Assembly: GCA_947579665.1 (NCBI GenBank)
Contig: OX388351.1
Coordinates: forward strand, 55,560,939 to 55,624,938
Direction: 5' to 3'
DNA: 64,000 nucleotides
Source: Sympetrum striolatum
Taxonomy: Eukaryota > Arthropoda > Insecta > Odonata > Libellulidae
Under the pieces are notes generated by a model that ran no database searches, was not told where the DNA came from, and saw nothing but the letters and a program-made list of their open reading frames with translations. Below, piece by piece: positions 11,674 through 48,782 of this stretch. A program made the position numbers and the translations under genes. Within the stretch, counting starts at the first letter, position 1, and every line of letters begins with the position of its first letter.

Positions 11674-11677
11674 TTGT
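11674..11677. other. Target-site duplication, left copy (TTGT)
   Basis: TTGT directly precedes the left LTR and recurs as TTGT at 17369-17372 directly after the right LTR. A 4-6 bp duplication is normal for Ty3/gypsy integrases, so this fixes the element boundaries. Confidence 0.8.
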
Positions 11678-12048
11678 TGTCGCGACCGACCGACTGTCGG
11701 TATGGTAGCGCTATGCTGCCACCACCTGAGCTGATGAAGGAGGGCTCAGGTCCTCGGAGGTTGGGTTCTTGCCCTGGGGGCTTGATGAAAATACCGAGTA
11801 ACAATGAAATAAAAAACTTTATTCTCCTCAAATTCACACTCCCAGATACTCCACGTACGTCCCTCACTCTCCCCAAACCCCAACTGCCTTCCGCTCGCGC
11901 TTTCCCTACAGCCTCCCTCCTGTCCCGTTATTTCGGTTATCCTCAACCTCGGAAAAACCCGCTGTGGGATTTCCGCCCACCCAAGCAGGAAGGTTCCTGA
12001 CCCTGGCGAGTCCTTTATCCTTTCTTTCCCGCGGTCGCGGACGCGACA
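11678..12048 (-). repeat. 3' LTR of the gypsy element
   Basis: The LTR is 371 bp. On the plus strand it runs from TGTCGCGACC to GGACGCGACA, so its ends form a 10-bp inverted repeat with one mismatch. On the minus strand an AATAAA lies at 11818-11823 and a TATA-like GGATAAAGGA at 12011-12020. Every block compared matches the other LTR with a constant offset of 5320 bp. The short frames inside it are not genes. Confidence 0.95.
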
Positions 12049-12050
12049 TT

Positions 12051-12061
12051 ACTCCCCCCTT
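12051..12061 (-). promoter_or_regulatory. Polypurine tract
   Basis: On the minus strand AAGGGGGGAGT lies two bases upstream of the 3' LTR. This is the usual position for the plus-strand primer left by RNase H during reverse transcription. Confidence 0.85.
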
Positions 12062-12098: not shown

Positions 12099-15000
12099 TT
12101 ATTCGGCTACCGGAGCTGGACCTCGGCTCCTAAGCAGGTACGGGCTTCGCGGGCGAGGTGGTGGGTCGATGGCCTGGGGTTGAGTTGCTCTGGTCGCCTC
12201 ATTGTCCTCCCACACGTAAGGGGGAGGGGGATGGATGGTACCTGGCCTCTCTTTGACCCTCACAGTGGGGCGCTGGGCAGGCTCTTCTTCCCTCTCTGGC
12301 GCCGACGCTCCTTTGTACCCTTTCATTCGGTTGGCGTGCACCCACTGCCTATCCCTCGCATTGAGGAGGTGCTGGATCTCGAAGGAGACCTCCCCTCTCC
12401 TCCCTATAATACGATACGGACCCTTCCACCTCTTCGCAAACTTCTTGCTCAATCCTGGACGTGGTGTGTGGTCCTGTAAATACGCCTTATCTCCAAGCTG
12501 AAAGGAGACCTCCCGACTGCCTTTATTGTACTGCCGCTCCTGTCTCTCCGCGCTAAGATTTAGCCGCGACTGCACCCTCTCGAACGCAATATTAAGCCGC
12601 GCCCGAAGTTCGGCGGCATAATTGTTATCCACACTGTAGTCCCGCCTTAGAGGGGTGAGGATGTCGTCGAAAGGGAGTTCGATGTCCCGTCCATGGAGAA
12701 GGAAGTATGGGGTCTCGCCGGTGGAGCTGTGGGTGGTGCTCCGATAAGCCAGAAGGGCGTAAGGCACCCAAGTGTCCCAATCCCTTTGATCATCCCGCAC
12801 AAAGTGGGAGATGATTTCTGCGAATGTTTGGTGACTCCTCTCCACCAAGCCATTGCACGCAGGATGGTAAGCGGTGGTTTGCAGTTTTTTGACCCCCAGA
12901 AGTACACAACTGTCTTTCATTACTTTGGAAAGGAAATTCGCCCCCCGGTCGGTGAGAAGTTGTCTTGGCGCCCCATGACGCACAATTACATTTTCGACGA
13001 ACGCACGCGCCACTGTGTCCGCCTTCTGGTCGGGTAAGGGAATTGCCTCCGGATATTTGGAAAAGGCGTCTTGGAATGTTAAAATAAATCGGTTTCCCTT
13101 ATCTGAGGTGGGAAGCGGTCCGACTATGTCCATGGATGTCCTCTCAAATGGCCTCGTGACCTCCTGAAACCTTTGAAGAGGAGCGCGTTTCCTCCCGTGC
13201 GGGGTTTTCCTCTCATTACATGAGGCGCAAGCCTGGCAGTAAGTCCTCACATCCGCTTTCAATCGCGACCACCAAAATTGGGCGCTGATTGCATCCGTTG
13301 TACGGCGAATCCCCAGATGCCCCGCCCATGGAGAGTCGTGGTAACTTCGGAGAATCCGCCCCCTCATGGATGCGGGTGCGACCACTTGATCTTGCCTCTG
13401 CTCACCGCTTCGGGTCCGGTAAAGGATTCCGTCGTCGTCCTTAAAAAATGTCTCTCCCAGCTCTCCTTCCTCCAGATCGCGAAGAACGCCTGCCGCGTAC
13501 TCGTCCTTCCCCTGCTCCTCTTTAATGAGCTGGCGGTCCCAAACTGGCTCGTACTCCGGCGCGATCGCATTGACCGCGGTCCTTGATAACACGTCGGCGT
13601 TTACGTGTTGTTTCCCTGGGCGATGGATTATCTCGAACTCGTATTCACTAAGTAGGAGGGCCCAGCGGGTGAGGCGGGAAGAAGGGTCTTTCAGGGACAA
13701 TAGCCATCTCAAGGGCCTATGGTCGGTGACAATAGTAAATTTCCTCCCATACACATAGCACCGGTAGTGTTTTATGGCCCACACTACCGCGAGGCACTCT
13801 CTTTCCGTCGCACTGTAGTTCGATTCTGCTCTATTTAATTGGCGGCTGGCATATGCGATCACATGTTCCCTTCCATTAACCTTTTGTGATAGCACAGCTC
13901 CTAGAGCGGCACCGGAGGCGTCCGTAGCAAGGATGAAAGGTTCACCAAAATCGGGGTATTGTAACACCGGTTTTTCACAAAGGGCGGCGCATAGTTCTGA
14001 GAAGGATTTGTTTGCCTCGTCACTCCACTTAAAAGCCGTATTTTTCTTGGTCATCTCGGTGAGGGGTTTGGCTATTCTCGCAAACGATGGGATGAATCTC
14101 CGATAATAACCCACGAGTCCAAGAAACCCGCGAAGTTCTCGGAGATTCCTCGGAATCGGGAAATTACGGATCGCTTGCACTTTTTCTGGGTCAGGCTTTA
14201 CCCCTTCCGCTGACACAACATGTCCCAAGTATTTAACCGTCGTAAGCATCAACTGACACTTTCGAGGGTTTAATGTCAAATTCGCCTCTCGAAGCCTCTC
14301 CAACACATCCCTTAGCCGCCGGTTATGCTCTTCCACGTCCCTCCCAAAGACAATAATATCATCTAAATACACGAGACAACGCTCCCCCCGAAGGCCCGTG
14401 AGCACTGCATCCATTAACCGTTGGAAAGTACTAGGGGCGTTGGCGAGTCCGAACGGCATCCTCAAATACTCGTAATGCCCGTCGGGCGTGGAGAATGCCG
14501 TCTTTTCCTGGTCCCGCGGTTCAACCTCGATCTGCCAATATCCACTCTCCAAATCCAAGGTCGAGAAATATCGGGCGCTTCCCAACTGGTCCAGTGTCTC
14601 CTGTATATTGGGGAGGGGGTAAACGTCCCTCTTAGTCACCGCGTTGAGCCTTCGGAAGTCGGTGCAGAACCTTGTTTTTGTTTTCCCATCCTCTCCCTTC
14701 TTCGCCACTAACACCACGGGTGCACTCCACGGAGATACTGATTCCCTAATCACTCCCTGTTTAAGCATCTCCTCCACATGTTCTTTTATCACCGCCTTCT
14801 GTGAGTGTGGGACCCGATAGGGCGCCTGTCGCACCGGAGCAGCGTCCCCCGTGCTTATTTGGTGCTTCACGCGATGGGTGCAGCTGAGGCCGGTGCCCAA
14901 GGGCCGAAAAACGTCCTTAAATTCGTGGAGGAGACTCTCCAACGGCTTCCTCTCCCCATCCTCCAACGCATTCAGCTCTTCCTCAAGACCCTCCAGCGCA

Positions 15001-15971
15001 TTTATGTGAGCGACATCCCCACAATCAATAGTACCCCTTTCCTCAACGGAAACATCAAATAAAACGCCTACATTGGTATTTTTATATACCCTCACTTCAG
15101 CCCCACTCACATTGCTTATCCTCAGCGGCACCATCAGATCTTCCCTCTCCGCTATCACGCTCCGTCCGACGATTACTCCGTGCACGAGTACTTCCGTCGG
15201 TTCCATGATGAGCTCTCTGCCCTCCCCAACCGCAGAATTCTGACGGCCAAAACACACCATCTCACACCTTGGCGGTAGAACAATATCCTCACATAACACC
15301 ACACGTAACCCTATCTCATCACATTTATTCGATCTCTTTTCCATGTCTTTTGAATTCTCCGCAAATTCATCCCTTCGAAGCACCCTTTTATCCGCGCGAG
15401 TCTCCGCTGCACCGCTCTCTGTCCGCAGAGCCATCGCAAGTTCCCCTCCTTCATTTCTATGTGAGCCCTCGAAATGGATTTCCTTTGAGCCCAGCCGCAA
15501 CACCCCGTCCTTTACGTCGATTACTGCTCCTAATCGCCGCAGAAGATCCCACCCCATAATCCCGTCCGTTTTAATCGTCATCCCTTCTCCACAGATGTAA
15601 AACGGGTGGCGGATTCTCCGATTCCCAATTATCAGATCCATATCCGTGGTGCCCAATGCGGGAAGCTGATGCCCTGTAACTCCGAGGAGCCGAACGGTAG
15701 GTGTGTTAACTTCCGTCGTCGCGGCGATACACTCCCTAATTAAAGATACGGAGGACCCCGTATCAACAAGGAGACGAATTCTTCTTTCGCTCCCATTCAT
15801 CTCCACTTCTATGACTTGTTCAATGGATTCCGGATAATGAAGAGCAGGAATCATTATATTAAGCCCCTTATTGTCTATCGCCTCTGATGTTGACGATTCG
15901 CCTCCGCGAACAAGGGGCGCGTTGCGGAGGGAGACCCGTTTGGGGAACCCCTGGGGCGTTGGGAATAACAC
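12099..15971 (-). CDS. pol: Pol polyprotein (PR-RT-RNaseH-IN) of the gypsy element
   Basis: This 1290-codon frame is intact. An aspartic protease has DTGSS at residues 70-74 and a DGIMGWD flap-side motif near 136-142. RT spans about 380-600 with the first catalytic Asp at 473 and YLDD at 535-538. RNase H has TDAS at 683-686, Glu near 725, D750 and D793. Integrase has an HX6H pair (878, 885), CX2C (915, 918), the D948/D1008/E1044 triad with 35 residues between the last two, and GPY at 1184-1186. The proline-rich C-terminus lacks a chromodomain. The frame has no proper start: it opens with GTG directly after an in-frame TGA at 15972-15974. It is therefore expected to be made only as a Gag-Pol fusion by -1 frameshifting, entering at about residue 12. 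All key catalytic residues are present. The protein copies the element RNA in cytoplasmic particles and integrates the DNA in the nucleus. Confidence 0.97.
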   Translation of the reverse strand: MLFPTPQGFPKRVSLRNAPLVRGGESSTSEAIDNKGLNIMIPALHYPESIEQVIEVEMNGSERRIRLLVDTGSSVSLIRECIAATTEVNTPTVRLLGVTGHQLPALGTTDMDLIIGNRRIRHPFYICGEGMTIKTDGIMGWDLLRRLGAVIDVKDGVLRLGSKEIHFEGSHRNEGGELAMALRTESGAAETRADKRVLRRDEFAENSKDMEKRSNKCDEIGLRVVLCEDIVLPPRCEMVCFGRQNSAVGEGRELIMEPTEVLVHGVIVGRSVIAEREDLMVPLRISNVSGAEVRVYKNTNVGVLFDVSVEERGTIDCGDVAHINALEGLEEELNALEDGERKPLESLLHEFKDVFRPLGTGLSCTHRVKHQISTGDAAPVRQAPYRVPHSQKAVIKEHVEEMLKQGVIRESVSPWSAPVVLVAKKGEDGKTKTRFCTDFRRLNAVTKRDVYPLPNIQETLDQLGSARYFSTLDLESGYWQIEVEPRDQEKTAFSTPDGHYEYLRMPFGLANAPSTFQRLMDAVLTGLRGERCLVYLDDIIVFGRDVEEHNRRLRDVLERLREANLTLNPRKCQLMLTTVKYLGHVVSAEGVKPDPEKVQAIRNFPIPRNLRELRGFLGLVGYYRRFIPSFARIAKPLTEMTKKNTAFKWSDEANKSFSELCAALCEKPVLQYPDFGEPFILATDASGAALGAVLSQKVNGREHVIAYASRQLNRAESNYSATERECLAVVWAIKHYRCYVYGRKFTIVTDHRPLRWLLSLKDPSSRLTRWALLLSEYEFEIIHRPGKQHVNADVLSRTAVNAIAPEYEPVWDRQLIKEEQGKDEYAAGVLRDLEEGELGETFFKDDDGILYRTRSGEQRQDQVVAPASMRGRILRSYHDSPWAGHLGIRRTTDAISAQFWWSRLKADVRTYCQACASCNERKTPHGRKRAPLQRFQEVTRPFERTSMDIVGPLPTSDKGNRFILTFQDAFSKYPEAIPLPDQKADTVARAFVENVIVRHGAPRQLLTDRGANFLSKVMKDSCVLLGVKKLQTTAYHPACNGLVERSHQTFAEIISHFVRDDQRDWDTWVPYALLAYRSTTHSSTGETPYFLLHGRDIELPFDDILTPLRRDYSVDNNYAAELRARLNIAFERVQSRLNLSAERQERQYNKGSREVSFQLGDKAYLQDHTPRPGLSKKFAKRWKGPYRIIGRRGEVSFEIQHLLNARDRQWVHANRMKGYKGASAPEREEEPAQRPTVRVKERPGTIHPPPPYVWEDNEATRATQPQAIDPPPRPRSPYLLRSRGPAPVAE
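15863..15944 (-). promoter_or_regulatory. Candidate -1 ribosomal frameshift signal (slippery site and pseudoknot)
   Basis: In the gag frame the codons CCA AAC, preceded by C, give the heptamer C CCA AAC (15938-15944), a fit to X XXY YYZ. After a 7-nt spacer (15931-15937) comes stem 1, CCTCCGC (15924-15930) with GCGGAGG (15901-15907), seven perfect pairs. The loop of that stem holds GCCCCTTGTT (15909-15918). It can pair with AATAAGGGGC (15863-15872) in ten pairs, one of them G-U. Loop lengths would be 5, 1 and 28 nt, a standard H-type pseudoknot. Slippage here moves ribosomes from gag into the pol frame. The pairing is read directly from sequence; function is inferred. Confidence 0.8.
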
Positions 15972-16852
15972 TCATTGGGGAGTCTCGAACCACCACGGCA
16001 GTTCCGCGAAAGGTGCCCCTTCACTCCACACAGATGACAGATAACCTCCGGACACTCGCGAGAATAATGTCCAATCCTCCCGCAGGTAAAACACCTCGAT
16101 CCGCCTACGGGCGGCTCTTGTGTAGCCCGCGGAAATCTCCCTCGCCGCTCCGGCTCCTCCCCCGTCCTCCTGCGATACGTTGAGGTCTGAGGGCTCGGTG
16201 GGCGCGTTACCTGCGCCACGAATTCGTCGTTGTCCTCTCCGATGCAGAAACAGCTGCGAGGACTTGTCATCGCCTCGTTTTCTTCCTCCTGTACGGCCAC
16301 GCGAATCGCCTCGTCCAACGTCTTCGGATCACGGGACAGAACGAACCGCCTAATCCCCGAACGAAGTCCCTTTAAAAATTGGGCCAAGAGATTCTCGTTG
16401 TGAATCGTCCACCGAATCGCATCCTCTTTAGGATCCCCCGTTTTCTTCAGCGTGTTTACTCCCGCTGCTCGTAGTCGCGTTGCGAATTCCTGTGAGTTTT
16501 CTCCCGCTCTTTGAGTGCACGTCATCAGCCGACTTAGAGCCGATGAATATGATTCCCTGGCCTTAAAGCGACTGCGGAGGATCTCCTGAAATTCCGCCCA
16601 TTTCGGCGTAGCACTCAGCACTGGGTGATGCCTCAGGAATATTTGAGCGGTCCCCCTTAGCCTCAGTTTCGCGATACTGACTTTTAAGGAATCGCTCCAT
16701 TTCCCGATCCCTGCTATTTCCTCCAGGGCCTCAAGAAAACACTCCACATCACTTCCCTCTTCTCCGGAGAATTGACCGACCAAGTGAACCAACGATCCGA
16801 AGCTCGGGCCAGCCATCGCCTCCTCAGCTTGTGTCCCCGTAGTCGCCGTCAT
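15875..16852 (-). CDS. gag: Gag protein of the gypsy element
   Basis: From the ATG at 16850-16852 the protein has 325 residues. The same frame extends upstream only to a GTG at 16909, just after a TAG at 16913-16915, so the ATG (G at -3) is the likely start. A retrotransposon gag core lies at about residues 65-150. A basic, proline-rich linker follows. Two CCHC zinc knuckles of type CX2CX4HX4C sit at about residues 264-277 and 282-295, before a short tail. Gag forms the particle and binds element RNA. Its last 97 nt overlap pol in the -1 frame, and its TAG stop (15875-15877) lies in loop 3 of the predicted pseudoknot. The length and the double knuckle are ordinary for the family. It appears intact. 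Confidence 0.92.
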   Translation of the reverse strand: MTATTGTQAEEAMAGPSFGSLVHLVGQFSGEEGSDVECFLEALEEIAGIGKWSDSLKVSIAKLRLRGTAQIFLRHHPVLSATPKWAEFQEILRSRFKARESYSSALSRLMTCTQRAGENSQEFATRLRAAGVNTLKKTGDPKEDAIRWTIHNENLLAQFLKGLRSGIRRFVLSRDPKTLDEAIRVAVQEEENEAMTSPRSCFCIGEDNDEFVAQVTRPPSPQTSTYRRRTGEEPERRGRFPRATQEPPVGGSRCFTCGRIGHYSRECPEVICHLCGVKGHLSRNCRGGSRLPNECYSQRPRGSPNGSPSATRPLFAEANRQHQRR

Positions 16853-16997
16853 TCCTCTCCTTCCGTAACCACCGATTCTCTCCGCGTCCGTTCTTCCTCC
16901 TCTCGGCACTTCCTAGCGCCGGCGGCGTGATCACTTGGAGCGCCGCCGTCCCCGGGCTTCTTCCGTGGATGATTTAATCCCACCTGCTGCCACCAAA
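16853..16997 (-). other. Gypsy 5' untranslated leader
   Basis: The 145 nt between the 5' LTR and the gag ATG contain the primer-binding site and a GC-rich stretch. They are likely to carry packaging signals, but no specific structure was worked out. Confidence 0.7.
16978..16995 (-). promoter_or_regulatory. Primer-binding site, tRNA-Leu-like
   Basis: Two bases inside the 5' LTR the minus strand reads TGGTGGCAGCAGGTGGGATT. TGG complements the CCA end of a tRNA, and the rest resembles the 3' end of insect tRNA-Leu (a CCCAC T-stem and a TGACA-type acceptor) with one substitution and a small indel. The primer identity is an inference from remembered tRNA ends. The position is what makes it a primer-binding site. 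Confidence 0.7.
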
Positions 16998-17368
16998 TGT
17001 CGCGACCGACCGACTGTCGGTATGGTAGCGCTATGCTGCCACCACCTGAGCTGATGAAGGAGGGCTCAGGTCCTCGGAGGTTGGGTTCTTGCCCTGGGGG
17101 CTTGATGAAAATACCGAGTAACAATGAAATAAAAAACTTTATTCTCCTCAAATTCACACTCCCAGATACTCCACGTACGTCCCTCACTCTCCCCAAACCC
17201 CAACTGCCTTCCGCTCGCGCTTTCCCTACAGCCTCCCTCCTGTCCCGTTATTTCGGTTATCCTCAACCTCGGAAAAACCCGCTGTGGGATTTCCGCCCAC
17301 CCAAGCAGGAAGGTTCCTGACCCTGGCGAGTCCTTTATCCTTTCTTTCCCGCGGTCGCGGACGCGACA
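16998..17368 (-). repeat. 5' LTR of the gypsy element
   Basis: This 371-bp LTR matches 11678-12048 at every block compared, with no difference seen. It should hold the promoter for the full-length RNA. The minus-strand AATAAA is at 17138-17143. The right-hand TTGT target duplication follows at 17369-17372. Confidence 0.95.
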
Positions 17369-17372
17369 TTGT

Positions 17373-27400: not shown

Positions 27401-28314
27401 ATAATAAAGACACTTGCGTCTCATTATTCTACAAATTAGTTTAATTTATTTTCAAAATAATTTATGGCACACAGGAAGTTTAATTCCTGATAATGATCGT
27501 GACAGGCGCTAAAAAGCAATAATTTCATTCCGATTTTGATCTGTCAGCATGGATGAAAGAATCTCATGAATTTTAAATTATCTGACAGAGTAATAAATAA
27601 TTGAAATTTGAACCCTTTTCCTCTGTTGATTTTACGGTGCCTTTTTGATTGGCATTAATCTATAATAAAAAAATGACAACGTTTCCCTTCGTTACTAATT
27701 ACGATTATTCATAAAAATCCGTTACTTTCAACGCTCATGTAAGATTCAAATTGATCAAATGATATACCAATTTGAACTGAATTCCCAGGAAATCCATTCA
27801 ATCAAAAAAATAATACACTCCTCTCCCTATCAAGCGTGTTAAAACATGAAATCATTATAAATTTGAAAATCGATAAAATGAAGTAAAAAATTACGGAGCT
27901 CACAGTTTCCTCTTGATCGGATTAGCGTCATTCGAATCGCAAAAGCGTTGGAAGAAGAGTCCCTCCGAAAAGTATAGATAATCTCGCTGAATGACATAAA
28001 TGTGGGCTCGTAGTGACATACTCGCATTTGGAAAGCTTAAAATAACCTCAAAAGGAAGATGAAGCGGCAAAATGAGTTCAAATCTTGACAGTAATGGGCT
28101 TACCTTGCATGGAAATGATTCGTGAGAGTTTTTATATACTTCGTGTCACTGTAGCACATTCAGCTTACTTACGTCATCCTGTAAGCATCTAAAGGGATAA
28201 TTATATGAATCTAATAATTACCTATGAATATGCTAAACATAGAAAAAACTTCCTTGTTTATATCTATCTTTTGATCAATATTTGACTTAAAGATGTATTT
28301 TAACATTAAAAAAT
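24491..28314. other. No supported gene; AT-rich
   Basis: A strong acceptor-like site, (CT)n followed by TTATTTCCCCAG at about 24925, precedes a 44-codon plus-strand frame (PTYFRPFTSQLISK...). There is no donor I would trust, so it is not called an exon. Other frames are AT-rich by-products. Confidence 0.35.
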
Positions 28315-28998
28315 TTGATGTGGCCAGCACATGACTTTCTCCATATATAACATGTAAATATTTATCTACGACAGTAATTTCGAACTCTATATTCCATCTA
28401 AACTTGGAAGATGAGTGATTAATATATATATTATAATCTTTGACGTCACAAACATTATAAATAATGTTTTTCGGGACATGATCGATGAAAAACAATGAAA
28501 TTGGCCTTTCGCCCATAGAGCCCAGAGCGCCCACAAAGTACATAATCAGCAACTTCCGGTTTATCACTATTTCATGAATAACTCCTAAACAATCAGTGAT
28601 ACGAAAATATGTTTCAAACAAAAGTTATTGTAAATTTTATTTTCTAAAACATTTATAAATAATAGTATATACCTAAATGTCATATTTATGGAGATATTTT
28701 GAAAACCGGAAATGATCTTTGATGAATGAAGCTCGACTTCAGGTAGACCGATTTACTCCAAAAACTAATCAACTCTGACAGCACACACCACAGTACTATA
28801 TATGAAGTTTGGTGTTGATACGACCAATAGTTTTCACGTTAGAGCGCCCACTATCACACACACACACACACAGACATCATTCCGAAAATGGTTAAAAAGT
28901 GTTCTAGGGACCCCAAAACATGTATTTCCATTGAAATCTCGAAGTCGAATTTTTTCATGAAAACAATACTTTCTCTATACTTTGTATATGGAGAAAGT
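28315..28998 (+). repeat. Composite repeat family, copy A (one internal monomer)
   Basis: The copy starts TTGATGTGGCCAGCACATGAC and ends with the 31-bp palindrome starting ACTTTCTC at 28968. The internal marker AGAGCGCCCAC occurs at 28524 and 28841, one 317-bp monomer. A (CA)n tract follows at 28855-28872, then a 3' segment shared with the other copies. A 136-codon minus-strand frame inside is not preserved in the other copies and is not called a gene. Confidence 0.8.
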
Positions 28999-31900
28999 AA
29001 AAATATTTACGGAGGAATCCTAGTAACATCAAACCAGGGATTATAATAGTATATCTCAAGCAAATATTTCTTTACTTTTCTATGCTTTACAGACCCCTTT
29101 ATGAGAGATCCTAATTAGTTGTTAGCAATAAAGGCTCTGTTTCTGAACCAACGACTCAAATATATTCCTCCAGCTCCTTATTTCTCTTCGGGTGAAACCA
29201 GGAAATGCTTCTTTGGAAAATCTTCCTTTGGAGTTGAGTGAAGAATTAAAACTGAATGGATGAGTTAATCTGTGAGGAAAAACGGGACGGTGGAAGAAAG
29301 AGTTTAAGGTGAAATTGGAATGAAGGGAGAAACTAAAGAAAGTATGCGAGAGAAAGGTGATGTTGGCATGTATATGGATAAGAAGGGTGTTGAAGGAAAG
29401 GGCAGGAAGGTTTGAGAAACTGGTTCTATGAGACAGAAATGCATGTATGTACGTAATCAATTGAAGATGAAAAAGAAGATTTTAAATCTAGAGGAAGGCA
29501 AGGATCGGAGCTCTCGTTGACATCGTTAACAACAATATGATTCTTGATTGGTTGTAATAACTCAGAGAGACAAAATCTTTTTTAAAATCCTAAATCTTAA
29601 GTGCCTAGTCCTCATTAATGAAGTTCGCCTTAAATTTAAGAAAGTTCACCAGAATTAATATACTCAGTAAGCCTTATATAAGAATAATTTACCATCAAAG
29701 TACTTCTAAAAAGTTAAATGTTTTATTTATACCTCTTGGATGAGGAATTTGAAGAATTTTACGGAATTTGTGAAGAATCTTCTCTTACTCCTTTACTGTC
29801 CCTGTCAGTGTCACCTCCAAAGTAGACTTGAAGAAAGAGGAAGGTTTTCAGCAGAATGTAATTTCAGCTCCGAAATGGCATCTAAATAGATTAGCGACAT
29901 AATGTGAGAGAGGTAGCGTTATTAGGTTTCGCCGAGAGTGAATTTTACGCCATCATCTTAATGTTAATCCTAAAGTGCAGAAGAGGGAGTAGTTGGAATG
30001 GTTCAAATAGTCGAGGAGGAAAATACCAGGAGATAATCTTCAATACCTTTCAATGGAGGCTATTTCTTCCAAGATTTCCAAAAACCATCCAAAATAGTCT
30101 AATGAAATCCATTTATCTCATTAAATGCAGAATGATTGTCATTGGCATTTCCTGTTCATATCTCGTTTTTTTCTTAATTTATGGGATAACTAAGGCGTGT
30201 TTTGAAGAGTGTTTCTTTTTAAACTCAGAGTTATTGTACCCGCAAGGATCTTAGTACTGTTATTTAATAAATCTTGTGTTTATTTATGGTTAATAAATCT
30301 TTATTTTCAGCTACTTTCATTTTGGAAATGAGGTACTTTTTCTTGCTCCTAGTCGAGCACCAATGTCCGAGTAACCGTAATAATTAGGTTATGGTAAGTT
30401 AACGATAGGATTCTTTTTCTTCTCCTACCAAGGTTCACTTTTCTCGGTTAAACATCATTTTCTCAGGTCTTCGGTGATCCTGCAATAATATAATCACCTG
30501 ATAGCTCATGATGCTACCCACACTCTACGATAACTTTCCCTTTTGTGGAATTGCTTCCAGTCGAATCTTCTCACGGATGAGGAGATTTCCCATCTCCCCA
30601 TTGCAAAGTGGTATATGACCTTGGATTCGATTACTTCCCCCTTGTAATCCTTATTAGGAAACAACTTGTTCTCTTGAGGCTTATACTGAACGGAGCAGGA
30701 ATATAGTAAATGTTCTTCCAAGCCTCCTTTTCGTTGTGCACGCTGTGTTTCAAATCTTATTTCGAGGACTGGATTAGTAGATAAGTTCATTACAGAGCAT
30801 ACTTAGATAAAGTCACAATAAATTAAGTCCAGTTATCTACCTAAATTATGCACGTTAGATTATTTGTAATTGCTCACGCTAAACTTTAAAACACAAGCTT
30901 TTGCGCATGATTAATTTTCACATGCTCACAAATTAACATGCAATAACTTATTAGCCCTCCTGATGTACTGGTTATTAAGCAATTTGAATGATTATTGTTT
31001 GAGAAACAAGGGATTTCTAGGGGGACCTTCTAGATTTATATATAGTATATATATAGATCTGGAAGTTATACATGTATAGCACAAGGATATATGAAAAAAG
31101 CTCTCAAGCACATATCTTTCTAACCCTTTGAGATTCTAGTAAGGAGGGAGGTGTAATTTATATAAGCAGAGGCATTGCGGAAAAGGTTGAATTGAAGGCA
31201 CGGCGCTTTCCCCCATTCACTCGAGGGTCGGAAGTGTGCAAGAATGATATTGGAAGGCGCCTCTAGCGGCGGAAAAAAGAAAAGGATTTCCCTTTCTTCA
31301 TCTCCACAGGGCTTCTTCTTTTCAACGATTTCCTAGAGACCAGTTTTACTACTTTTTCTAAGGAGTTTGGAGCTAATTTAAAGTTTTTATATAAAGAATG
31401 CTTGCGATGCATTTGTACGTACTTAAGTGCATTACGGTAACCAACTTCTGATTAAATCATCTTATTTCTTTTCACGCTTCAAAATCAAAAGACATTCTCC
31501 CCAACCCTTTCTCTCCCCTCCCGCGTTTACCACAATTTCCTCAGGACGAAAAAAGGTCATCGGTCCACTGTTTTCTTAGGAGCTGAGAAGAGAAGATAGA
31601 GGAGAAGGTCGAGGTTTTGCCGGTGTACAAACACTCCCCCCTACCACCTTCAATTTCTACCAAAACGAGATTACTGCAGCCTTTATGGTCAATTCGTGCA
31701 CGCTTGGAAATTTTTAGAATATCTCTGGGCAAGAATTTGTTCTTAATGCCAACTATTGCCATCTCAAGTGAAGAAGAGTAGGAGAACGTCCTCGGATTAA
31801 CAAATTTTCCTGGTTAAAATAAAAGGAGGATTCTAAATGATAATAGAAGACAATGGAGAAAATACTGGTATGCAATCCGCTTATTGTTCACTAATGGGGG

Positions 31901-34900: not shown

Positions 34901-37473
34901 AAAAGAGAGAGGGCACTTCTGCGTATCTCAGAGAGGAAGGATCTTCGCGAATGAATTGAAAGGAAGTCATAGCTATTCTAGGCGATGGTTTGGGTTTTAA
35001 AATACGTGCTTCTTTGGAGAGACGTCACACTAATCATGGCGTCACAAAAACGTATTTCTTAAAGGCGCGCAGCCTTGGCTCTTTGTTGGAATTACTTCCT
35101 CTGCTACCTTTTAGGGGGATGAAAATCTTTTCCACTATTCATAGCGCTGCATTGTGAGGAGTTTTCACTGCCATCTAGATTTACATTCGCGCAATTTCGT
35201 GGGAAGTGACGAGGGCAAAAATGGTGGTAATTCTCCTTCGCATGATTTGTAATCGGAGGCTCAATTGTTTGATTATTTATCTCAAATTCCTGCCTCTTTG
35301 CGGAATCGCAGACGTATAAATCATAACTTTAATGCGTATTTGTTGATTTAGTAATGGTGGGTGGAATTACTCTTCTTTTCATTTGCAGATATTTTAGGCA
35401 TTTTGTAGTTTGCATCGATAAAATTTCTTGTCTATAGAATAGGAATATTTACTTGATACAATTTGGAAGACACTGATGCTTTCTGGATTGGGAGAGATGT
35501 GACAAAGAAGGGTCAAAGGGTTTTGGAGGGTGAGTGAGGTTTGGTTGGAAGAGACGAAGGAAATTGGATGGGAAAAGCGTAACAAATATACGGAAGAAAT
35601 TTGTCGAAATGTTTCTTGAGTTGAAATTTCGTTATAAATTTGAGATGGATTAAGTGTGTATTCATATTGATTCGGCTAACGGAAGTATAACCCATGGTGC
35701 AATCTACTCTTTTACGGAAACATATATATGTATTCCAAATTCAGGAAAGTTGAATAGTACTAAGAAATGTTAGTGTAAATATAAAATAATTATGTATTTC
35801 GTCACAGGTTCTATTTCGTTTTTTACGAGTATTTCAATTTACAATATTAACTTGCGACACCTAATCTTACAAAAAATGAACACAGGAAGGAAAATCATGA
35901 AAACTTAGATAGAAAGTTAATATAGCATACTGTTCTTGCAAAATTTACAATCATAATGAGATCTTTGTGTATGAAAATTTCATAGCACATACACCCTATA
36001 AACTATTGAAGTAAGCTAATATTATTGTTTAAAGTATTATCATAAATTTCTGTTTTGTATTGATATACGTTCTCTTAAAAATTTGTAATGAATAAGACGT
36101 TTCATGTGTAAAGGACTGTAGAATACGTTTGTACTGTAAAGGTAATTGGCTGCTAAATTTGTGTCATCTGTAACTATTCAAACTGTGTGAAAGGATCATA
36201 AAATATATAAATTACTAATGCTGATGCAATTGATCAAGAGTAAATTGAATACAAATCAGCATCTGGTCGTATTTCAGGATCCCCCTCATATGAGGTTAAT
36301 TTAATTTGAATTATTTCTTTCCGTATGACCTGAAGTTCTGTGAAACACAAATGCATTGCAGAGAAAATTTTATATCTTGCTTTATTTAAGAAGTTTCCTT
36401 CGCCTTCTTTTGTCCTAATGGCTCTACTTCGTAGCTGACAGGAGATAATTACTTCCTTATTTTCTTCGAGGGCGTCTTATCTGCAATTCCCTCCGGACAC
36501 AGCAGTCCCTTAACACTGTCAACCTGATAACATTCTTCCTCTTTCAAAGTTATTTACGGCAGTCCGTGCTAAATCACTCTCGGCCGATGTTTACCAACCA
36601 ATTGGATAGCGCCCGTTTTTGGGAGATGTTAAAGGAGTCTCATCCGTTCTTAGGCACTAAGGGGTACCATAATTAGAATGGAAATAATCTACATTTAGTA
36701 GATCACTTCTGGAAGTGTTGGGACCCCAATGAAAATTTAAGCACTAAGATTGAAGTTCTAAAGGTTAGTAGGGACTGATTTTTAGTCCAATCTTATTTGA
36801 CATTACTTATGAAGAAGGTGAAAATAAACACATGGGTCAAAAATATCAGTCCCTATTCAGTTAGTATTATGTGAACAGCTTCCTAAATTTATGGGACGGA
36901 AAAACCAATGGAGGAAATTATTTTATAGCAAGTGTATGGGCACTAGCATTTCGCAATTAAAGAAATTCATTATTGCTTATTACCCATTGTTATGGTTCTA
37001 TAAGTGATAATGATATTTCTTTTCATTTCTAATATTTTCTTTTTTAAACCTACTTTAAACCAAATGCATGATGCATAACTAAATTAGTGCAATTTAAATT
37101 AATGAGCAAGGCAGCAATAGTAAAGTCAGAGAAAAATTACCGTAAGATATAAAGGTGAATGGTTAATGGACTACTCGTCACCAGAATTATTCGTATCGAG
37201 GAAAGGCATTCTACTTTTTGATTCTATATTAATGAATTCAATACATAATGAATGATTATTAATCAAATTAAATATAACAAATACATCCTTAGTAAGATTA
37301 ACTCCAGTTCACTAAAGTATAACAAAAATAATTACGTTAAATATACGTTATAATTGTATGCCTTTGAAATTTGAGATAAGTTCCTGGAAACGTTCGTTTT
37401 TGTGTAGACAAATCGCTACATAACATTTGTTATATACATTAAAGTATACGAATGAATACAATTTAAAATAAAA
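28999..37473. other. No supported gene over 8.5 kb; mostly AT-rich with small GC-richer patches
   Basis: Frames of 60-116 codons at 29122-30254, 30506-30790, 31541-31762 and 33308-33694 lack motifs or convincing splice pairs. The 30506-30790 minus-strand frame (94 codons with an ATG) is the least AT-biased, but I do not recognise it. Purine-rich patches lie at 33230-33620 and 34860-34960. GC-richer patches lie at 31150-31320 and 36430-36660. A TTACCCC/GGGGTAA hairpin is at 33336-33355. This would suit a large intron or intergenic region. Confidence 0.4.
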
Positions 37474-38329
37474 TCTGATGTGGCCAGCACATGACTTTCT
37501 CCATATTTTAGATGTAAATATTTATCTACGACAGTAATTTCGAACTCTATATTCCATCTAAACTTTGAAGATGAGTGATTAATTTAGATATTATTATCTT
37601 TGACGTCACAAACATTATAAATAATGTTTTTCAGGACATGTTCGATGAAAAATGATGAAATTGGCCTTTCGCCCCAGCGCCCAGAGCGCCCACAACGTAC
37701 ATAATCAGCAACTTCCGGTTTATCAGTATTTCACAAATAACTCCTATACAATCAGTGATACAAAAATATGTTTTTTACAAAAGTTATAGTATATTATATT
37801 TTCTAAAACTTTTATAAATAATTGTATATACCTAAATATCATATTTATGGAGATATTTTGAAAACCGGAAATGAGCTTTGAAGAATGAAGCTCGACTTCC
37901 GGTTCACCGATTTTCTCCAAAATCTAATCAACTCTAAAGACACAAACCAAAATATTATACATGAGATTTGGTGTTGATCCGACAAATACTTTTTATGTTA
38001 GAGCGCCCACAAAGTACATAATCAGCTACTTCCGTTTGATCAGTATTTCACGAATAACTCCTAATCAACCGGTGATGCAAAAAAAGGTTAAATGCAAAAG
38101 TTATAATAAAACACATTATCTAAAACTTTTATTTGGTACACAATATACCTATATATCATATTTATGGAGATATTTTGAAAACCGGAAATGAGCTTTGATG
38201 AATGAAGCTCGACTTCCGGTGTACCGATTTTCTTGAAAAACTAATCAACTCTGACAGCACAAAGTACAGTACTAAATATGAATTTTGGTATTGATACGAC
38301 TTATAGTTTTCACGTTAGAGCGCCCACTG

Positions 38330-38371
<42 letters not shown>

Positions 38372-38500
38372 ACAGACATCATTCCAAAAATGGTCAAAAC
38401 GTGTTCTAGGGACCCCAAAACATGTATTTCCGTTGAAATCTCGAAGTCGATTTTTTTCATGAAAACAATACTTTCTCTATACTTCGTATATGGAGAAAGT
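37474..38500 (+). repeat. Composite repeat family, copy B (two internal monomers)
   Basis: Same order of blocks as copy A, but with two monomers. AGAGCGCCCAC occurs at 37683, 38000 and 38317, exactly 317 bp apart each time. Each monomer contains a CCGGAA...TTCCGG hairpin around an AGCTT/AAGCT inner stem. The (CA)n tract is at about 38331-38375. The copy ends with the palindrome at 38470-38500 (ACTTTCTC...GAGAAAGT). Confidence 0.85.
38331..38375. repeat. (CA)n microsatellite inside copy B
   Basis: About 22 CA units with one ATA interruption, immediately after the last monomer. Equivalent tracts of different length occur at 28855-28872, 46685-46743 and 47741-47767 in the other copies. The tract is therefore part of the family and length-variable. 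Confidence 0.9.
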
Positions 38501-41500
38501 AACAAGCAATAAATGCTCAACGGAATCCTTAGCAGAATAGAAAGACGTTTATGCAATAGCGTGCTCGATAACAATGAGCTCCGTTTCTATTGAAATAAAT
38601 AAATAAACAAACAACCTGTAACGGAACTTAGTCATTCATCTTAGAAAACCAACAAAATTACTTTGTCATAAAGTCCATTCGGAGATTTAAATATCATAAA
38701 AGCATTCTTGTTTATTCTAATGCAAAATAATGCATTATAATCAATGTAAAGGTTAGTAACGATTGAAATATGAAGGATAAATACATATAAAATTAACTTC
38801 TGCGTTTCAAATGTTATTCCTAGTCAATAGAGATCTACTAATACTTTCAAAGGTCAAAGGGAAAATATGACCATTTTATGTTTAACCAAATCATTATTCC
38901 ATTTAAATAGCTAATGCTTTCTATACATTTGTAAATAAAGGTAGAAAATTAGCGTATATTGTCAAATATTGAATGTAAGTTCCATAGAATTAGTGCAAAA
39001 ACGAGTATGTGGGACAAAAATTAAGGTTTGAAGTTTAATATGCAAGGGACGCATTTGGCTGAATGACCCCATGCATCTGAGATAAGGAATACTTGAATTA
39101 TATCACAATGGCGTAAAGAAATTTACCGAAATAACTAATTGAATTGATCATAAGCATACGGAAAATTCTTTAACTCCAATCGCGGAAATTATTATATTTG
39201 AAGCTTATAATTCCTGAAATATATAAAAAAAATCTGCTGCATAGATTCATACTTTTTAAATTTCCGGAGTATAATGTACTATTTTGAGATAATAAATGGT
39301 TTTTAAATCTGTGGGAAGTGGGTACAAACTCGAAATCTCATAACCTACGTAAGATTTAACTTCTCTAACGAGAACATTTTCATCCTATTTATTTTGTCAC
39401 ATAAGGGTTGATCAGGATGCGAATATGAACACCGCCGCATTTTCTGAAATTAATTCATTCTGATAATTCCCTTGGCAACGGTTCTCCCCGGCATTTGCAA
39501 TTTCACTCTTTTGAACGCCAATGCTGCCCCCTATTAGCACTTTTCCAAATAATGCCCCGGAAGTGGTTTCGGCCTGTTAACTCCTCCACGGCTCCCCATT
39601 GTTACGTTGCCGTTAGTACAGGATTTGGCCGATAGGGCGGCGTCGTTGGGAGAAAGGGACCGAAAGTGACAAAAAGCCCACGCTATCGCTCCCCTAAATA
39701 TCTCGACTTAGGAATTTCATTAATTAATGTGAAGAGCCAAGAAGATGATGACGGAATTAATTTCAGCTTGCTTTTTCGCTCCATTTACAAAATATTTTGA
39801 GCCCGTTTTTTTGGGTTTTATCAAGAAATTAATTCAATATTATTAATAATTATATATCGTCCAACGTAGCCTCAAGTACTCTTTGTAGTAGATTAGTAGA
39901 TTCATATGCATATGATTAAATATATATTAGGCAACAAATGATGATGAGATTTTCACGGAAAACTTTATTTTATGAATCCATCCATATAATTTCAATTGAT
40001 TTTTTTCTACTTCTTTATTTAAAAAATCTAATTAATTTTTAATCTATTTCTTTGTTTCTCTTTGAGGATCAAGCGGCACTTTAGCTAATTATTACTCTAA
40101 GCCCGTCACATATCCATTCCAAATGATTCTAAAAATGTATGATTTTCAAGAAATAATCAAAGCTAACTTTAAAAGAACCATTGGATATAATGATTCTGAG
40201 AGTGATGAGGTATAACATGGTCCAGATGTGATACAGCACCAGAGAGAAGGCTAATTTCGAAAAGTCGGAAGGAAGAGTTCACAGATGGCGGCACTGGGGT
40301 CAGGACGGGTCTCTTCCTCCGTGACCTACGTAATGAAGCTCCGTCTGCCGAGAAGAGATGGGAAAAGGAACCAAAATGGATTGAAAAAGTAAGAAAATTG
40401 CAGATGTCGCACCATTAAATTTCCAATGAGAGTAAATTGTGTGAAGAAAAAATGCATAATTAAAACTAAATTAATTCACATTATACATTACATATTTCAT
40501 TAGTAAGCATGTATGTATGCTTTGCAGTCTTATTAATGAAATAAGTGACCAATATTTGCACTATCGTCAGTATTACAGACATACCTATCAATTAAAGAAA
40601 CTTTATGAGTATAGGCTCCACTGTGATTAGTCTGCCACGACTAACATTAATTCGTCCTGGCGACTTAAAATAAATATTTTGTAACTTTTAGTGGTTATAA
40701 AATTACCAACAGGGCTAATTATACCATTTCATTATTTAAATATAATTTGGAACAAATGTTAAAAAAATACGCACGTGTTCAAATCTGAGAAAAGGTTGGA
40801 TCATATTGACTAAAACAAACGAAGGAAAACAAAATTCCTTAATATTTTGAAATCTTTCTCGAAATGTCCGCGTATACACGTATTTCGTCCTTTTGAAGAA
40901 TCGTGGACGAACTATTTTCGTGTTGAAAGTGCACGCAAAGGAGTGTACGGTATTCGTGAAGTGGATCTCGCTCATTAGCACGACTCTCCAGGGGTTCGTT
41001 GGGGATGATGTCCATCGATGACCACCCGAGGAGCTCCGTGTGGATAAAGCAAAAGGATCCCTCAATGGCTGTGATTAGAATTCCTTCCTTGACGTGTGCT
41101 ACTATCCGGAGTCTATTTCACTCAGTATTTCTTCAGTATATACAGCTGAGTTCTATTTCACATATATGAGACGGCTATCAAATAGTAATTGATTTTCAGT
41201 TCCCACGAGAACAGAATAGGTTTTTATGAAAACATCCTTGATTAGCTCTCATAAAATTTGCTAAAACGCTTCATACTCACTACTATATCTACACATATAT
41301 GCTGCAAATCGGCGTATGGAACAGTGTGTATGCAAATGAAATCAACTCTCTAAATAACTGTCGCTGCGTGTAATTCCAGTCTGAGGAAAATATCCTTAAA
41401 TTGGCTTGTTCTTGCATATACTTCCCCATTTATTCTCCCATTGGTTTTCGTAAAAAAATAGACGCGTAGTGTATACTGCGTCTTCCAAGACAATACAAAC

Positions 41501-45846: not shown

Positions 45847-46683
45847 AACAATACTTTCTCTATACTTCGTATATGGAGAAAGTAAAAATCTGATGTGGCC
45901 AGCACATGACTTTCTCCATATATAAGATGTAAATACTTATCTACGACAGTAATTTCGAACTCTAAACATTATAAATAATGTTGTTCGGGACATGCTGGAT
46001 GAAAAACGATGAAACTGGCCTTTCGCCCATAGAGCCCAGAGCTCCCACAAAGTACATAATCAGCAACTTCCGGTTTATCAGTATTTCAGGAATAACTCCT
46101 AAACAATCAGTGATACTGAAATATGTTTCATACAAAAGTTATAGTAAATTATATTTTCTGAAACATTTATAATAATAGTATATACCTAAATATCATATTT
46201 ATGGAGATATTTTGAAAACCGGAAATGAGCTTTGAAGAATGAAGCTCAACTTCCGGTTAACCGATTTACTCCAAAAACTAATCAACTCTAAACACTGTAA
46301 TAGAAGTACTACATATGAAATTTAGTGTTGATCCGCCAAATAGTTTTCATGTTAGAGCGCCCACAAAGTACATAATCATCTTCTTCCGGTTTATCAGTGT
46401 TTCACGAATAACTCCTAATCAACCGGTGATACAAAAATATGTTAAATACAAAAGTTATAGTAAATTACATTATCTAAAACTTTTATAAGTAATACAATAT
46501 ACGTATATATCATATTTATGGATATATTTTGAAAACAGGAAATGAGCTTTAATGATTAAAGCTCGACTTCCGGTTGACCGATTTACTCCAAAAACTAATC
46601 AACTCTGACAGCACACACCACAGTACTATATATGAAGTTTGGTGTTGATACGACCAATAGTTTTCACGTTAGAGCGTCCACTA

Positions 46684-46741
<58 letters not shown>

Positions 46742-47736
46742 ACATACATCATTCCGAAAATGGTCAAAACGTGTTCTAGGGACCCCAAAACATGTATTTC
46801 CGTTGAAATCTCGAAGTCGAATTTTTTCATGAAAACAATACTTTCTCTATACTTCGTATATGGAGAAAGTAAAAAATCTGATGTGGCCAGCACATGACTT
46901 TCTCCTTATATATATATAATGTAAATATTTATCTACCGCAGTAATTTCGAACTCTATATTCCATCTAAAATTGGGATATGAGTGATTAATATATATATAT
47001 TATTATCTTTGACGCCAAAAACATGAATAATAATGTTTTACGGGACATGATCGATGAAAAACGATGAAATTGGCATTTCGCCCATAGAGCCCAGAGCGCC
47101 CACAAAGTACATAATCAGCCACTTCCGGTTTATCAGTATTTCATGAATAACTCCTACACAATCAGTGATACAAAAATATGTTTCAACCGATAGTTATAGT
47201 AAATTTTATTTTCTAAAACGATTATAAATAATAGTATATACCTAAATATCGTATTTATGGAGATATTTTGAAAACCGGAAATGAGCTTTGAAGAATACAG
47301 CTCGACTTCCGGTAAACCGATTTACTCCAAAAACTAATCAACTCTTAAGAAACTAAATAAAGTACTATATATGAAATTTGGTGTTGATATAATGCATCGT
47401 TTTTAAGTTAGAGCGCCCACAAAGTACATAACGGCTACTTCCGGTTTATCGGTATTTCACGAATAACTCCTAATCAACCGGTGATACAAAAATATGTTAA
47501 ATACAAAAGTTATATTAAATAACATTATCTAAAACTTTTATAAGTAATACAATGCAGGTATATATCATATTTATGGAGATATTTTGAAAACCGGAAATGA
47601 GCTATAATGAATGAAGCTCGACTTCCGGTCAACCGATTTACTCCAAAAACTAATCAACTCTGACAGCACACACCACAATACTATATACGAAGTTTGGTAT
47701 TAATACGACCAATAGTTTTCACGATAGAGCGCCCAC

Positions 47737-47771
<35 letters not shown>

Positions 47772-47893
47772 TCATTCCGAAAATAGTCAAAACGTGTTCT
47801 AGGGACCCCAAAACATGTATTTCCGTTGAAATCTCGAAGTCGAATTTTTTCATGAAAACAATACTTTCTCTATACTTCGTATATGGAGAAAGT
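45847..47893 (+). repeat. Head-to-tail array of the composite repeat (end fragment plus copies C and D)
   Basis: The array opens with only the terminal palindrome of a truncated copy (45853-45883). Copy C (45889-46870) and copy D (46877-47893) follow in the same orientation. The junctions read GAGAAAGTAAAAA followed by TCTGATGTGGCC both times. Monomer markers are at 46038, 46354 and 46671 in C, and at 47093, 47410 and 47726 in D, 316-317 bp apart. C lacks about 60 bp of the 5' segment that A, B and D keep. (CA)n tracts are at 46685-46743 and 47741-47767. Confidence 0.88.
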
Positions 47894-48782
47894 AAAAAAT
47901 ATAAAAAAGTTATATTTATCATGAATAAATAATTAAATAACATACAGATAGTCAGCGTTAGGTTTTATAATCAACACTGAAGTATTAGGATATAGAATAA
48001 AGATTTAGTTTCAAAAACTAACAAATAGTAATCTTCGTCTGTTCTGGTTGTTACATTCAGACTCAAAACTCATGGAACTCATTTCAGTATGATATGAATT
48101 TGTAGAATTTTAGATTACTTCTCAATATTGTATTTTCCTAAGAATATGCGCTGACATGAAATTTTTAGTTGTGCAACTATTTGATTGTCCGAGTGACTAC
48201 CAAGAGTTTTTATGAGACTGCAATGACTTGCAACTTAGTGGGCCGATCAAATTGTTTGTTTGTTTTTCCTCAAACTGAATGCAGCTCAATGACTATCTAA
48301 AACGTGCATTATGTCAACCGATCGTAAAAAATTACATAGAATTAAATTAAGACTATTGGCCCACCCTTTAAGGAGTTGTGCACTAAATCCTAGGCTAAAG
48401 GTAGCAATAATACTATTACTGTGGATCTTATGATTCGCAGATTAAAAATATCAAATATAGATAAAAATAAATAAATAATCAACTATTGAATTGATTTAAT
48501 ACAGCAAGAATCACGTAATAATGTCTAATTTCCTGTGAAAAATATATTGAGTTCCTTACGACAGTTATAGAAAACTTTGAATATAATTGTTATAGATAAT
48601 ACTCAATGACATTGTCCTTGAGTATCATACATTTGAAATAGCAAGATATATTTTTTATTGAATTTAGCAATGGCATATACCGACTACAGTAGGTAAAGAT
48701 ATACATGGACGTATAACTACATTAAAAAACAGAGAATCTTGTAAAGTGAAGCTAGATACAGGTACAATATTTTTAGAGGAAT
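47894..48782. other. No gene seen; AT-rich
   Basis: AT-rich with stops in all frames and no recognised repeat. Confidence 0.4.

Follow-up and report, generated by a model that had tools for sequence, protein, structure and literature searches.

The gag/pol junction of a young Ty3/gypsy retrotransposon in Sympetrum striolatum (Odonata, Libellulidae) very probably carries a working programmed −1 ribosomal frameshift signal, with an H-type pseudoknot as its predicted stimulator. The junction lies in a 64,000-nucleotide stretch of contig OX388351.1 (positions 55,560,939 to 55,624,938 of assembly GCA_947579665.1), which we call the window and in which all coordinates are counted. The evidence consists of a slippery heptamer in the gag frame, a pol frame in −1, the spacing and two complementary stems, an arrangement that is conserved in related elements of the same genome.

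The element and its gag/pol junction

The element on the minus strand of the window has the following parts.

17368-11678, minus strand: whole Ty3/gypsy-type element, complete, 5,691 bp
17369..17372, minus strand: target-site duplication ACAA, 5' side, 4 bp
16998..17368, minus strand: 5' LTR, 371 bp
16978..16995, minus strand: primer-binding-site-like stretch TGGTGGCAGCAGGTGGGA, 3' of the 5' LTR
15875..16912, minus strand: gag open frame, stop to stop, 345 codons, first ATG at 16852
12099..15971, minus strand: pol open frame, 1290 codons, −1 relative to gag
12052..12061, minus strand: polypurine tract AAGGGGGGAG, 5' of the 3' LTR
11678..12048, minus strand: 3' LTR, 371 bp, no difference from the 5' LTR
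11674..11677, minus strand: target-site duplication ACAA, 3' side, 4 bp

With gag followed by pol, LTRs that begin with TG and end with CA, a primer site, a polypurine tract and a short target duplication, the element is a young Ty3/gypsy (Metaviridae) LTR retrotransposon. Pol matched the Pfam domains for protease, RT, RNase H and integrase in this order, and gag has CCHC zinc knuckles and a match to Retrotrans_gag slightly below the cut-off. Since the two LTRs are identical, the insertion is recent. An errantivirus, that is a gypsy element with env, was considered and rejected, because the 50 bases between the end of pol at 12099 and the start of the 3' LTR at 12048 leave no env. The best-named relative was LOC124166472 of Ischnura elegans (52% over 90% of pol). 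The primer site was assigned from its position alone and presumably resembles the 3' end of tRNA-Leu plus one extra base. Its first 11 bases (TGGTGGCAGCA; 16995-16985) recur inside the 5' LTR near its end (17044-17034). An Rfam search of the window at gathering scores gave no match, and a tRNA scan found no tRNA. Elsewhere in the window, dispersed repeats of about 0.7-1 kb are found at 28309-29003, 37469-38505 and 45884-47898; those near 37.5-38.5 and 45.9-47.9 kb have 317-bp tandem duplications followed by CA runs, and the stretch 8985-9088 matches 37736-37839 in inverted orientation at 80%.

At the junction, gag and pol overlap by 97 nt. The pol frame is closed upstream by a TGA at 15974-15972 and the gag frame ends with the TAG at 15877-15875. 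The cassette reads as follows.

15938..15944, minus strand: slippery heptamer C_CCA_AAC in gag phase, P site CCA, A site AAC
15931..15937, minus strand: 7-nt spacer GGGTCTC
15924..15930, minus strand: stem 1, 5' arm CCTCCGC
15919..15923, minus strand: loop 1, AACGC, 5 nt
15909..15918, minus strand: stem 2, 5' arm GCCCCTTGTT
15908..15908, minus strand: junction nucleotide C between the stems (L2), 1 nt
15901..15907, minus strand: stem 1, 3' arm GCGGAGG
15873..15900, minus strand: loop 3, 28 nt, with the gag stop TAG and a possible weak hairpin (15897-15892/15882-15877)
15863..15872, minus strand: stem 2, 3' arm AATAAGGGGC

The original prediction had described this geometry, and it was borne out on the minus strand: the in-frame heptamer, the closing TGA and the overlap, the spacer, the three loop lengths, the seven perfect pairs of stem 1 (15930-15924 with 15907-15901) and the ten pairs of stem 2 (15918-15909 with 15872-15863), one of which is G-U. 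The junction has what is asked of a frameshift signal, namely an in-frame heptamer of the type X_XXY_YYZ, a downstream frame in −1 and a stable structure that starts 7 nt downstream (range 5-9).

From this arrangement we infer that ribosomes reading gag would pause at stem 1 with CCA in the P site and AAC in the A site. In a minority of cases, the two tRNAs would re-pair one base back on CCC and AAA, and the slipped ribosomes would bypass the gag stop in loop 3 and enter pol, giving much less Gag-Pol than Gag. With tandem slippage, the gag residues ..RGSPN would run on into the pol residues RVSLR... The unslipped ribosomes would terminate at the gag stop, 61-63 nt downstream. This stop lies between the 3' arms of stems 1 and 2, and termination may let the structure refold for the next ribosome, an idea taken solely by analogy from a coronavirus. 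According to the available part of PMC8168617, a near stop helps frameshifting in SARS-CoV-2 and is proposed to let the pseudoknot refold. There, as in our element, the 0-frame stop is inside the stimulator region, but it comes only five codons downstream, within stem 1 (PMC8168617), whereas here it is in loop 3.

Chance tests, folding and copies of the cassette

The junction was scored for the best H-type pseudoknot with a stem 1 starting 5-9 nt past the heptamer, using nearest-neighbour stacking and a simple loop penalty. Its score of −25.4 was matched by none of 30,000 dinucleotide shuffles, of which 7 reached −20. The coding strand of the whole element was then scanned with stem and loop ranges taken from PMC3835772. 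Of the 709 candidates that scored −18 kcal/mol or lower, the cassette ranked first with −35.8, followed by a runner-up at −33.2. In the available part of PMC3835772, about 78% of the recoding pseudoknots are the strongest of their RNA, and known signals have a spacer of 6-9 nt and characteristic loop ranges, within which the geometry of the cassette falls. The cassette shares with the viral H-type frameshift pseudoknots described there the heptamer, the spacer, the two-stem topology and the rank as strongest pseudoknot of its RNA. It may differ from retroviral and other viral pseudoknots in the 10 bp of stem 2 and in having the 0-frame stop in loop 3.

The overlap holds one strict heptamer only. 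As 369 of 5,000 shuffled overlaps also had an in-phase heptamer, the heptamer by itself is unremarkable. When 15944-15850 was folded without pseudoknots, the nested minimum-energy fold differed from the pseudoknot: most of the stem 2 pairing was retained and stem 1 was swapped for other hairpins, with a z-score of −1.36 for the whole stretch and −24.7 kcal/mol for the downstream part. By our rough scoring with an assumed penalty, the pseudoknot would be about as stable as this nested fold. The hairpin in loop 3 (6 bp, −5.5 kcal/mol) was weighed as a possible third stem but judged weak, being equalled by 187 of 2,000 shuffles and altered in two copies of the element (L053, L055).

A search of the genome (1.35 Gb, 544 contigs) with the junction gave at least 24 copies of this element including that of the window, here called the window family. 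The heptamer was intact in all 24 copies found and all 17 stem pairs in 22 of them. One exception, L039, has one broken pair in stem 2, with gag open and pol open to the end of the locus. The other, L055, matches gag and pol in part and is 93% identical; it has one broken pair in each stem and two stem 2 pairs changed to G-U. Without L055, one of 38 distinct substitutions fell within the 41 nt of heptamer and stems (3.9 expected, P 0.09), and with L055 5 of 60 did (6.1 expected). Heptamer and stems are thus not clearly changing slower than their surroundings within the window family, whose copies are too alike to say much about constraint.

Related elements in the genome and beyond

The genome was also searched with part of pol, and 49 of 2,890 candidates were scored: 17 of the window family and 32 others (L073-L104). 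We sorted these 32 loci by their junction sequence into five families of our own grouping, F1 (9 loci), F2 (12), F3 (4), F4 (2) and F5 (5). In F1-F4, pol shares 51-59% identity with the window family, and the four share 62-69% with one another. CCCAAAC with a stem 5-9 nt downstream was present in all 32 loci, as was CCCAAACG at the junction. In 28 of the 32 the heptamer is in gag phase within a −1 gag/pol overlap. The remaining four (L074, L075, L103, L104) failed the overlap test; the frame of their pol match differs from the frame entered at the heptamer, and the latter stops at +552, +927 and twice at +1218. Nine loci of F1, F2 and F4 have more than 4,000 stop-free bases in the pol frame entered at the heptamer, and 11 more loci, all of the same three families, have no stop within the 999-1,215 bases read. 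The frame has a stop at +2496 in L077 and at +3090 in L078.

In all five copies of F5, the pol frame has a stop at +543 and the gag frame is split in two pieces. Since they share these interruptions, F5 backs the signal less than it appears to. The five copies (L091, L092, L094, L099, L102) are near-identical, and a frame of about 1,200 codons bearing the RT follows the +543 stop. Either the copies multiplied while broken, or there is a further recoding site. Two more relatives of F5 at 92-93% were located in the genome, as were F3 copies on C26 and C5. Just past the heptamer, gag of L091 reads PNALPSAP, where relatives have LSAP, FSAP, PSAT or PSAL; PSAP is a late-domain motif of retroviral Gag.

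A search with gag returned 124 places, and 19 further junction stretches were read. On the 74.6-kb contig C302, four F3-type gag copies (13779, 31781, 49783, 67785) are spaced exactly 18,002 bases apart; either an 18-kb unit that includes the element is repeated in tandem there, or the pattern is an assembly artefact. In the F3-like locus L123 the heptamer is replaced by CCCAGAC and the 5' arm of stem 2 is changed. The pol frame of L123 is open across the bases read and its gag has one stop, by which it looks like a decaying copy. The loss of the heptamer in relatives with intact pol had been named beforehand as evidence that would speak against the signal; the heptamer was found in 56 of 56 places, and L123, with pol open as read, is the case that goes the other way.

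Thirteen of the additional junctions (L109-L121) form a sister clade, with gag 29-38% identical. All 13 have GGGAAAC, which is the heptamer of PEG10. In 12 it is followed by a stem with a 4-6-nt loop, 8-10 bp long in 11 cases and 6 bp in L111; L115 lacks a stem. Over 10 distinct cassettes, L115 included, the 8-bp stem is paired in 90% of its cells. Both sides change in three of the eight pairs, and the covariation score was reached by none of 500 shuffles, a margin that relatedness alone can produce. The compact hairpin of these loci suggests a second frameshift design in the same genome. In the other junctions read, L105 has CCCAAAC out of phase with gag as read and interrupted frames, L106-L108 have long gag frames with no in-phase heptamer and no recognisable pol within the 901 bases read, and L122 is an F2 junction already counted as L075.

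Beyond this genome, viral contigs gave no match to the whole-pol query and one distant, single-frame locus (L001) to an alignment query. Bacterial and archaeal assemblies gave L002-L031, and these elements are probably eukaryotic contamination. L001-L023 were examined; nine have separate, overlapping gag and pol frames, and the other 14 are single-frame, truncated or interrupted. In all nine, chosen for their split, overlapping frames, pol is in −1 and a strict heptamer is in phase, and four of the nine reach a pseudoknot score of −15 or better. The junction seen in L003 is downstream of the matched pol and belongs to another element. A Gag protein search returned one relative and five with an alignment query. 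The tails of Gag relatives often hold PN or GN where a heptamer could lie; proteins cannot reveal the heptamer, so this was given no weight.

Could Pol be translated independently of a frameshift, with ribosomes re-initiating or initiating internally at the first pol-frame ATG close to the gag stop? The position of this ATG is +84 in both F2 and the window family, +81 in F3 and +72 in F1; it begins 12-21 nt after the gag stop, upstream of the protease motif, and in one F1 locus (L093) a pol-frame ATG at +51 overlaps the gag stop as ATGA. In F4, however, where the pol frame runs on for more than 4,000 bases with no stop, the first ATG comes at +420, past the protease motif, which makes frameshifting the plain route to the protease there. 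F5 has no pol-frame ATG in the 952 bases read, though its frame is interrupted at +543. The heptamer, moreover, is conserved in all families and recurs in phase in the nine distant split-frame relatives. We regard initiation at these ATGs as very improbable and frameshifting as the preferred route to Pol.

Evolution of the two stems

In F1, F2, F3 and F5, stem 1 is at the same offset as in the window family, +7 to +13 pairing with +30 to +36, where 0 is the first nucleotide past the heptamer. Its core there is CTCCGC/GCGGAG around 16 nt, and it can be extended inward in F3 (leaving 14 nt) and F5 (leaving 12 nt). F4 has a stem 1 of unrelated sequence with 8 bp and a 10-nt loop. Tested in eight representatives, stem 1 was equalled by 1 to 67 of 2,000 shuffles. 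In a gap-free alignment of 10 distinct cassettes, from which F4 was omitted for its different geometry, 98.6% of the stem 1 cells were paired, compared to 43-66% when the arms were slid. The outer pair is C-G in five cassettes, U-A in four and U-G in one, and has gone from C-G to U-A in two families. The compensatory changes looked for in both stems were therefore seen in stem 1 at this one pair only, five of the seven pairs being invariant; for stem 2 outside the window family, pairing rose above chance only in the joint swap test described below.

The gag (PNG..SA........AE) and pol (PKR..LR) residues are largely conserved across the stem 1 region, so part of its conservation may be coding. 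Taken to its end, this would make the stem a coincidence of a dual-coded stretch, in which the conserved residues of both proteins happen to yield complementary CTCCGC/GCGGAG. Most of these residues do recur in five families, and the invariant pairs would fit. The shuffle tests argue against such a coincidence, as does the start of the stem exactly 7 nt past an in-phase heptamer. The unrelated stem 1 of F4 makes it unlikely that coding is the whole reason, and the sister clade has a covarying hairpin of its own. Coincidence is hardly credible as the explanation, and stem 1 is well supported.

The case for stem 2 differs between families. In the window family, given stem 1, its ten pairs were equalled by 12 of 3,000 shuffles of the loop and downstream sequence. 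The best stem 2 of F1-F5 has 5-6 pairs and was equalled by 413 to 1,705 of 3,000 shuffles in each family (14-57%), and no significance was found family by family. We then paired the loop of each family with the downstream sequence of every other family, which preserves the shared composition. The native assignment was matched or beaten by 4 of 720 permutations, itself included, and with the window family left out 4 of 120 were as good. The support for stem 2 is good in the window family; as an ancestral feature shared across the families, stem 2 has modest support.

These results bear on the idea that stem 1 alone, as a GC-rich stem-loop, stimulates a real frameshift and that stem 2 of the window family is accidental or unimportant. 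The results for F1-F5 taken singly would agree with it, as would the compact hairpin that follows GGGAAAC in the sister clade and the L039 copy, whose frames are open in spite of its broken stem 2 pair. It is at odds with the shuffles of the window-family stem 2 and with the swap test. Also, between 10 and 16 nt lie inside stem 1 across all six families (12-16 in five of them), compared to the 4-6 nt of the sister clade. We consider a stimulator without stem 2 unlikely, and favour the pseudoknot for the window family.

How the families came by their stems is more tentative. It is quite possible, if somewhat short of an even chance, that one ancestral cassette, consisting of CCCAAAC, a stem 1 at +7 and a C-rich loop whose partner is a purine stretch next to the gag stop, has survived in families with about 51-69% Pol identity. 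Each family would have rewritten its stem 2 partners, and one would have exchanged stem 1 altogether, with GGGAAAC and a compact hairpin in the sister clade.

A pseudoknot-type −1 signal in the gypsy lineage is of a known kind, since the available part of PMC5009743 reports both −1 pol frames and pseudoknots in two Ty3/gypsy-derived mammalian genes. The 2003 survey it cites found pol in −1 in 28 of 51 animal LTR elements, many with a heptamer; the −1 pol is shared with our element, and this part of PMC5009743 describes no stimulatory structure for them. PEG10 uses a pseudoknot stimulator and Ma3 (PNMA3) a classical H-type pseudoknot, and both undergo −1 frameshifting, as is predicted here (PMC5009743). 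They are, however, domesticated single genes, Ma3 without a Pol domain (PMC5009743), whereas the element of the window is multi-copy and recent and uses CCCAAAC. The original prediction had called the signal notable because many Ty3/gypsy elements have less obvious ones. The heptamer with its structure is indeed present, but this argument is weakened by how common such −1 signals are among the relatives studied here. Among the open-access papers listed by our searches, we found no earlier description of the window family and no structural comparison of −1 signals in multi-copy animal gypsy elements; the open-access titles listed for CCCAAAC included no use by a retrotransposon.

Structured −1 signals have been well studied in viruses and in a few domesticated mammalian genes. 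What is new here is the comparison within a single genome, with one heptamer across families, a stem 1 geometry common to most of them, second stems that differ, and a hairpin in the sister clade. With several families that share the heptamer and differ in the second stem, and with the hairpin clade beside them, the gain, rewriting and replacement of a stimulator become directly testable. If the ancestral cassette is real, the genome of S. striolatum would hold a natural series of stimulator turnover, pseudoknot versus hairpin, on one type of Gag-Pol junction.
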